Assembly: GCA_029551395.1 (NCBI GenBank)
Contig: JAKPFN010000034.1
Coordinates: 1 to 64,000, forward strand
Origin: Armatimonadota bacterium
GTDB lineage: Bacteria > Armatimonadota > UBA5829 > DTLH01
Length of the DNA: 64,000 bases
Direction: 5' to 3'
This document shows positions 5,063 through 58,459 of this stretch, one piece after another. Within the stretch, counting starts at the first letter, position 1; the number at the start of each line of letters is the position of its first letter. The notes beneath the pieces were generated by a model. That model was given only the letters and a program-made list of their open reading frames with translations, did no database searches and was not told where the DNA came from. The translations under genes were made by a program, and so were the position numbers.

Positions 5063-5091
5063 TTGATGTGCTTGGTTTATGTTGGTATAAT
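5063..5091 (+). promoter_or_regulatory. Sigma-70 promoter of the cation-exporter leader
   Basis: TTGATG (5063-5068), 17-base spacer, perfect TATAAT (5086-5091). A start near 5098 places the riboswitch at the very 5' end of the transcript. Confidence 0.7.
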
Positions 5092-5100
5092 CCCCATAGA

Positions 5101-5217
5101 TTATGATTGGATCAGGCGGTCTTGGATATATCGAGACGCTGCCGGGCCTGGAATTTCGGGCAGCAGGTGATGTGAGTCGAGGACCTGTGGGACTGTAATA
5201 AGTACCGCAGGTCTTTT
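5101..5217 (+). ncRNA. NiCo (czcD-motif) riboswitch with intrinsic terminator
   Basis: The leader matches the four-way-junction cobalt/nickel riboswitch architecture as I recall it. CAGGC is followed by a helix (GGTCTTGG..TCGAGAC), then GCTGCCGGGC and a helix closed by CGGGCAGCAGGT, then a hairpin loop, then ACCTGTGGGACTG. These are the conserved GCCGGGC, GGCA.CAG and CTGTGGGAC segments. The 3' strand of the last helix (GACCTGTGG, 5182-5190) can instead pair with CCGCAGGTC (5205-5213), which is followed by TTTT: a mutually exclusive terminator. In this class, metal binding prevents termination and turns on an exporter, matching the CDF gene downstream. The outer P1 helix is weak and A/U-rich. 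Confidence 0.8.
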
Positions 5218-5233
5218 ATATTTTGAGGGCATA

Positions 5234-6163
5234 ATGGGAATCAAAAGTGGTGCTGCAGCACTTTCAATTTTATCTAATACAACACTTGTTATCATAAAGC
5301 TCGTAGTTGGGTTATTGACAGGCTCAGTCAGCATAATCTCTGAGGCTGCGCATTCTGCTACTGATCTGGCAGCATCATTCATGGCGTATTTTTCTGTTCG
5401 GGCTGCTGATGTTCCGGCAGATGATGAGCATCCTTTTGGACATGGCAAGATAGAGAACGTTTCAGGTGTAATAGAGGCTATCTTGATCTTTCTTGCAGCC
5501 GGATACATCGTTTTCGAGTCTATCCGAAGGTTTCCGTCAGCGCTCAGGGGCGATTACGAAGTAGACCCTTTACTTGGTATCATAGTGATGCTGTTCTCTG
5601 CTATAGCAAATTTCGCAATCTCCAGTTGGTTGTTCAAAGTAGCTAAAGACACCGATTCCATAGCACTTGCAGCAGATGCCCAACACCTGCAGGCTGATGT
5701 TTGGACCTCAGCAGGAGTTTTCCTGGGACTTGTATTGATTCAGATTACCGGGTTAGTGGTGCTTGACCCAATCATTGCACTTATGGTTGCGCTTATGATT
5801 ATTCGTGCAGCATACCGGCTGACTAAAGAAGCAGGAGCACCTCTTGTAGATGCGCGGCTGCCTCAAAGAGAAATTGACAAGGTTATCGATATACTCCTGT
5901 CAGACCGCCGAATAGTTGGATTCCACAAACTCAGGACGCGCAAAGCAGGCGCAGAACGTCATATAGATGTCCATATCCTGGTGTCGGAAAAACTCAGCAT
6001 CGGTGAAGCTCATGAACTGGCTGAGCAGATTGAAGATGAAATACGCAGTGCTCTGGGAGGAGTACATATAGTAACTCATGTCGAACCTGATACGGAAGAA
6101 AACCTGCGTGAGACTCCACCGGAAGGATTGGCTGATAGTGGAACCAACAGCACAGATAAGTAA
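5234..6163 (+). CDS. Cation diffusion facilitator (CDF) metal exporter
   Basis: A 309-residue CDF transporter. Helix 2 carries SEAAHSATD (H..D site A), followed by the diagnostic HPFGHGKIEN loop. Helix 5 has AADAQHLQADVWTS with the second half of the metal site, and the C-terminal cytoplasmic ferredoxin-like domain runs from about 205 (HIDVHILV, HIVTHVEPD). CDF proteins export divalent metals in exchange for protons. The start ATG has GAGGG eight bases upstream. The riboswitch in front predicts Co(II)/Ni(II) as the physiological inducer and probably substrate. A Glu/Asp/Thr/Asn-rich tail follows the ferredoxin-like domain. Confidence 0.93.
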   Translation: MGIKSGAAALSILSNTTLVIIKLVVGLLTGSVSIISEAAHSATDLAASFMAYFSVRAADVPADDEHPFGHGKIENVSGVIEAILIFLAAGYIVFESIRRFPSALRGDYEVDPLLGIIVMLFSAIANFAISSWLFKVAKDTDSIALAADAQHLQADVWTSAGVFLGLVLIQITGLVVLDPIIALMVALMIIRAAYRLTKEAGAPLVDARLPQREIDKVIDILLSDRRIVGFHKLRTRKAGAERHIDVHILVSEKLSIGEAHELAEQIEDEIRSALGGVHIVTHVEPDTEENLRETPPEGLADSGTNSTDK

Positions 6164-14864: not shown

Positions 14865-14940
14865 TGGCTGCCGGACTAGGGCTCGAACCTAGGGCCTACT
14901 GATCCAGAGTCAGTCGCTCTCCCAACTGAGCTATCCGGCA
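14865..14940 (-). tRNA. tRNA-Gln(CTG)
   Basis: Full cloverleaf on the minus strand: acceptor TGCCGGA/TCCGGCA, discriminator G and encoded CCA. D arm is GCTC/GAGC, anticodon stem ACTGA/TCAGT with loop CTCTGGA (anticodon CTG, reads CAG), T arm CTAGG-TTCGAGC-CCTAG. It lies about 95 bases downstream of glnS on the same strand, so it may be part of that transcript. Confidence 0.96.
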
Positions 14941-20144: not shown

Positions 20145-20486
20145 AAAGTAAGCCAGATAATCGCTCCGGTAACGGAGAGGAAAGTCCGGGCTCCACAGGG
20201 CATGATGCTGGATAACGTCCAGCGGGCGAAAGCCTAGGGAAAGTGCCACAGAAAAGAAAACGGCCTCGGTCTTTTGACCGGGACCAGAGCTGAAACGGTG
20301 GTGTAAGAGACCACCGGCGGTGTGGTGACACACCGGCCTGGTAAACCCCATCAGGAGCAAGGCCGAATAGGAGAGGGTTGAAGCTGCCCGCCGACCTCTC
20401 GGGTAACGGCCGCTAGAGGGTCGGAGTAATCCGGCTCGTAAGAGAGATGATTATCCAAGACAGAACCCGGCTTATAGACTTGCTTG
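20145..20486 (+). ncRNA. rnpB: RNase P RNA, bacterial type A
   Basis: Catalytic RNA that removes tRNA 5' leaders. P1 is AAGTAAG (20146-20152) with CTTGCTT (20479-20485). The conserved cores are present: GAGGAAAGTCCGGGCTCC near the 5' end, GGGCGAAAGCCTAGGGAAAGTGCCACAGAAA in the middle, and ATCCAAGACAGAACCCGGCTTA near the 3' end. GGTAAACCCCATCAGGAGCAAG corresponds to the CR-II/III region. Length about 342 nt fits type A. Minus-strand reading frames across it are fortuitous. Confidence 0.97.
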
Positions 20487-20522
20487 AAAAAAAGGGGGGT
20501 TGCACTTGCGGCCGCCCTTTTT
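20486..20522 (+). terminator. rnpB terminator
   Basis: AAAAAGGGGGG pairs with CCGCCCTTTTT (one bulge) around a short loop, ending in a T run directly after the mature 3' end. Confidence 0.65.
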
Positions 20523-58373: not shown

Positions 58374-58459
58374 TGGTGGGGATGAGAGGAGTTGAACCTC
58401 CACCCAGTAATCTGGACTTGGCCCTCAACCAAGCGCGTCTGCCATTCCGCCACATCCCC
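58374..58459 (-). tRNA. tRNA-Leu(GAG)
   Basis: Class II tRNA on the minus strand: acceptor GGGGATG/CATCCCC, discriminator A and encoded CCA. Anticodon stem CTTGG/CCAAG with loop TTGAGGG (anticodon GAG), long variable arm, T arm GGAGG-TTCAACT-CCTCT. Reads CUC/CUU leucine codons. Confidence 0.96.

Follow-up and report, generated by a model that had tools for sequence, protein, structure and literature searches.

The closest described counterparts of the locus reported here are the NiCo (czcD) riboswitches of Clostridium botulinum and Erysipelotrichaceae (4RUM), which combine a four-helix junction, guanine metal junctions, an overlapping intrinsic terminator and a downstream exporter gene. In the solved Erysipelotrichaceae RNA the metal ligands are G45-G47 and G87-G88, and the mechanism described for the class is antitermination by the metal-stabilised aptamer (PMC7689651). 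The same RNA class is also found ahead of a metal exporter in Listeria, where the target is a P1B-ATPase (LMO3448, PfeT-like; PMC7689651). The yybP-ykoY RNAs are likewise metal sensors located ahead of metal-homeostasis genes, but they form a separate family.

The ligand of the NiCo class has been termed under debate (PMC9294342). As related in PMC7689651, the original characterisation found selectivity for Co and Ni, by in-line probing under aerobic conditions as well as in Clostridium. The account given there of the work of Xu and Cotruvo (2020) lists, for one member of the class, buffered anaerobic affinities of 120 nM for Co, 61 nM for Ni, 93 nM for Zn, 400 nM for Fe(II) and 11 uM for Mn, together with activation by all five of these metals in E. 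coli; of the five, only Fe(II) and Mn(II) were judged available enough in cells for binding. The occupancy by Fe(II) has been calculated as 74.6% (PMC9434800), and a 2024 review classes the NiCo riboswitch as Fe2+ (PMC11477304).

A NiCo riboswitch ahead of a CDF exporter gene

The architecture of the Clostridium botulinum and Erysipelotrichaceae riboswitches, from the four-helix junction to the exporter gene, was also found in the window (the whole 64,000-nucleotide stretch of DNA analysed), with different helix loop lengths and with a metal response that is predicted here. The features of the locus are the following:

5063-5091, + strand: sigma-70-type promoter with a TG extension (-35 TTGATG at 5063-5068, 17-base spacer, -10 TATAAT at 5086-5091)
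5098-5197, + strand: NiCo (czcD) riboswitch aptamer, Rfam RF02683 (covariance model positions 1-96 of 96, 57.5 bits)
5115-5143, + strand: aptamer helix P2 (Rfam model; 8 of its 10 pairs show double changes in relatives)
5144-5146, + strand: junction GGG, probable equivalent of the metal-binding G45-G47 (invariant in 22 sequences)
5146-5161, + strand: aptamer helix P3 (Rfam model, covariation)
5163-5188, + strand: aptamer helix P4, whose 3' arm (5183-5188) is common to the terminator (Rfam model, covariation)
5179-5224, + strand: intrinsic terminator (stem formed by 5179-5194 and 5201-5216; T-rich tail at 5214-5224)
5189-5191, + strand: junction GGG within the terminator 5' arm, probably containing the equivalents of the metal-binding G87-G88 (invariant in 22 sequences)
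5225-5229, + strand: probable ribosome-binding site GAGGG, predicted from the sequence
5234-6163, + strand: CDF cation exporter of 309 aa (Pfam Cation_efflux 6.6e-47, ZT_dimer 4.6e-22)

The covariance-model search that had been proposed as a check of the first-pass annotation gave a full-length match to RF02683, whose 57.5 bits lie far above the curated cut-off of 37 (E 1.5e-10, calculated for 64 kb and 4227 families), and thus confirmed the assignment to the NiCo/czcD class. The unaided reading of the raw sequence had therefore located a real riboswitch. Its aptamer-like segments were also correctly placed (GCCGGGC at 5141-5147, GGCAGCAGG at 5159-5167 and CTGTGGGACTG at 5185-5195), as was the promoter with its TTGATG-17-TATAAT arrangement; the interval originally given, 5063-5233, runs from the promoter through to the start codon, and the aptamer proper is 5098-5197. 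The search of the Rfam families returned no match to the yybP-ykoY manganese riboswitch in the window. A genome-wide search found this NiCo RNA to be the only one in the host genome, which is estimated to be 98.7% complete.

The promoter matches 10 of the 12 consensus bases, and the TG lies just 5' of the TATAAT. Transcription probably starts near 5098; since the TATAAT ends at 5091, the 5' end of the transcript would coincide almost exactly with the start of the aptamer, whose first base is 7 bases past the TATAAT and whose last base is 36 bases short of the CDF gene.

When the Rfam structure was projected on the sequence, four helices were obtained and 25 of the 26 model pairs were standard. 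The exception, the outermost P1 pair (5107-5196), is U-U, and this pair is weak in relatives too. The two junctions at 5144-5146 and 5189-5191 correspond by position to G45-47 and G87-88, which suggests that they are the metal-binding guanines of this RNA. Folding of the isolated aptamer, calculated without metal, gave -32.0 kcal/mol for another fold versus -20.9 kcal/mol for the model structure. Several relatives' isolated aptamers likewise prefer a non-aptamer fold in the energy calculation, and because of this and of the metal-free calculation, the minimum-energy fold is uninformative as evidence against the aptamer. The competing fold (5118-5187) pairs the P2 5' arm with the P4 3' arm. It could represent an off-state intermediate, or else be an artefact of calculating the fold without metal.

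Terminator overlap and the predicted switch

The reuse of an aptamer strand by the terminator, as read in the first-pass annotation, was borne out by folding. The hairpin formed by 5179-5194 and 5201-5216 has an energy of -22.1 kcal/mol; within it, GACCTGTGG (5182-5190) pairs with CCGCAGGTC (5205-5213), and the T-rich tail follows. In 200 shuffles of the 45 nucleotides that follow, an equal stem length with the aptamer strand was never reached. A simple terminator scan omitted this hairpin, as it permits only loops of 3-8 bases and a single uninterrupted stem, and folding reveals it clearly. Since the 3' arm of P4, the second GGG and the greater part of the P1 3' strand all lie within 5179-5194, the aptamer and the terminator are mutually exclusive. 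For the full leader the energy calculation favours the terminator form. This preference would suit a switch that is off by default, but it carries little weight, as metal is left out of the calculation and several relatives behave alike.

In the absence of metal, 5179-5194 would pair with 5201-5216 to form the terminator, and transcription would halt at the T-rich tail and not reach the exporter gene. A divalent transition metal is expected to bind the guanine junctions at 5144-5146 and 5189-5191, and the metal-bound four-helix aptamer would then retain the second GGG together with the 3' strands of P4 and P1, blocking the terminator and allowing the exporter to be made. The metal-on direction is predicted by analogy, from the class of the RNA and the logic of an exporter, and the switching would presumably be co-transcriptional. 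Control of the CDF metal exporter by a NiCo/czcD-class riboswitch through transcription antitermination is almost certain, and the locus most likely encodes an efflux pump that is switched on when a divalent metal accumulates. It is an ordinary, textbook example of a known RNA class and, as a compact one located ahead of the genome's only CDF gene, it offers a simple system for asking which metal the class senses.

The exporter and its metal site

The downstream gene is of the type expected in the first-pass annotation, as it encodes a CDF protein with both the Cation_efflux and the ZT_dimer domains, and no other CDF gene was found in the host genome. The predicted metal site is formed by H40, D44, H151 and D155 (HD-HD). 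According to the rule for Mn-type CDFs, these carry DxxxD in TM5 (PMC1868760); the exporter has HLQAD at 151-155. HD-HD is common to the Zn and Fe clades (PMC5703985) and occurs in other clades too. The iron clade 2 has, in addition, Asp at position 14, Asn at 18 and His at 22 (PMC5703985); in the sequence comparison the exporter shared the HD-HD of this clade and had S48, D148 and L152 as second-shell residues. All of the NCBIfam equivalogs MntE, FieF, DmeF and ZitB scored under their cut-offs, the Co/Ni exporter DmeF (NF033827) with 55.9 versus 250 bits. The closest solved relative is FieF (E 5.4e-38), named a ferrous-iron efflux pump and annotated also as a cadmium and zinc pump. Judged from its residues, the exporter is thus probably not of the manganese type, but the HD-HD site does not discriminate between Zn, Fe, Co and Ni. 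Because HD-HD is shared by the Zn and Fe clades and the four equivalogs all fell below their cut-offs, the transporter gives no call for the ligand.

The metal sensed

The first-pass annotation had predicted control by cobalt or nickel, as opposed to zinc or manganese. This conclusion exceeds the evidence; iron, the ligand favoured in reviews, had been left out.

On balance, Fe(II) is somewhat more likely than not to be the physiological metal, and an excess of Fe(II) would open the one CDF exporter found in the host, in whose genome Fur was not detected. The class has been re-assigned to Fe(II) in the literature (PMC7689651, PMC9434800, PMC11477304), and the name of FieF points in the same direction. 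In the host, FeoB adjoins a gene whose product has a DtxR-type C-terminal domain (G000 contig 110, L107 and L108), and the search for the Fur family gave no match in its genome, while 13 of 14 control genomes were positive. The other annotations of FieF, the occurrence of HD-HD in zinc, iron and other clades, and the second-shell residues, which differ from those of iron clade 2, count against iron.

Independent genetic context for the ligand question is provided by two genomes of one genus, in which a NiCo riboswitch with its terminator immediately precedes a Rieske [2Fe-2S] gene (L123 and L016). The second of these copies is the following:

G039 contig 13, 16688-16784: NiCo riboswitch of locus L016, preceding the Rieske gene

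At L016 the frame of the Rieske gene seems to be disrupted, rubrerythrin and VIT-family genes adjoin, and large RND-type efflux genes, recognised by eye, flank the locus. In L123 (G076) a P-type ATPase gene comes after the Rieske gene. The context in these relatives leans to iron, but since a P-type ATPase gene follows in L123 and RND-type genes flank L016, this is only suggestive. In the literature searched, no paper was found that names both the NiCo riboswitch and Rieske. A tentative extension, which we consider possible, is that the NiCo RNA of this lineage is an iron-overflow sensor working beside DtxR/FeoB, with no detectable Fur, and that the relatives have a wider iron regulon comprising the Rieske protein and exporters.

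A physiological response to Co(II) and Ni(II) only, which would make the exporter a cobalt/nickel pump, is unlikely, even though it is the selectivity of the original characterisation as related in PMC7689651 and such metals are taken up by the host, in which a NikR gene is directly followed by CbiM-type and CbiQ-like genes (G000 contig 165, L105). The NikR gene means that the host already possesses a protein sensor for nickel in addition to the riboswitch. Moreover, free Co and Ni in cells would not attain the buffered anaerobic affinities, in the account of PMC7689651, the calculated occupancy is mostly by Fe(II) (PMC9434800), and the exporter is far below the DmeF cut-off. The NikR/CbiM-type and DtxR-like/FeoB pairs indicate that both kinds of metal are handled by the host, and these sensor and uptake genes do not settle the ligand of the riboswitch. 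A broader response, or one to another metal, is more improbable still.

Conservation of the riboswitch in the phylum

The NiCo RNA was found in 21 of 61 sampled genomes, including that of the window, and in at least 32 of the 291 genomes of the phylum; both counts are lower bounds, because stricter filters were used in the larger searches. An alignment of 22 sites contained 24 invariant columns, with both GGG junctions among them. Double changes, in which both partners of a pair differ, were seen in 82 cells, compared with 33.8 in shuffles. The proportion of paired cells was 87.7% (at most 43.7% with slid partners) and the covariation score 0.415 (at most 0.113 with slid partners), so that the four helices are supported by covariation. 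The overlapping terminator was beyond chance in 19 of the 22 sites tested, where no more than 4 of 200 shuffles did equally well. The three remaining sites comprised one interrupted by unknown bases, one that was weak in the gapless test and one intermediate, at 10/200.

A degenerate aptamer or a chance match, with the hairpin acting as an ordinary attenuator that is constitutive, is very improbable: although the calculated minimum-energy fold of the isolated RNA is a different one, the bit score, the invariant junctions, the phylum-wide covariation and the conserved overlap all stand against it, and chance as such was ruled out by the covariance-model score, the shuffles and the covariation.

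The downstream genes were read at 35 sites: 27 encode CDF proteins and six encode P-type ATPases (L022, L117, L118, L123, L125 and L129; one of them after the Rieske gene), one site has the Rieske gene alone, and in one case the gene lies off the contig. These relatives thus use P-type ATPases as Listeria does, whereas the target in the window is a CDF protein. All 15 of the CDFs called as open frames have HxxxD in TM2 and in TM5. At L117 (G097 contig 17) the riboswitch is followed by a gene for a small membrane protein and then by the P-type ATPase gene; the small protein has no Pfam match and resembles, by eye, the protein after the Rieske gene in L016.

The loci of the most similar CDFs elsewhere (L023-L102) were also scanned, and a NiCo RNA was present at one of 40. 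This RNA (L029, 2870-2959), from an Actinomycetes MAG, lies ahead of a CDF gene whose product is 47% identical to that of the window. Since L029 is the only one of the 40, the NiCo RNA is not generally tied to this exporter family.

Other RNA genes detected in the window were a class A RNase P RNA at 20145-20490 (+ strand, 281.7 bits) and tRNA genes at 14868-14940 (- strand) and 58377-58459 (- strand).
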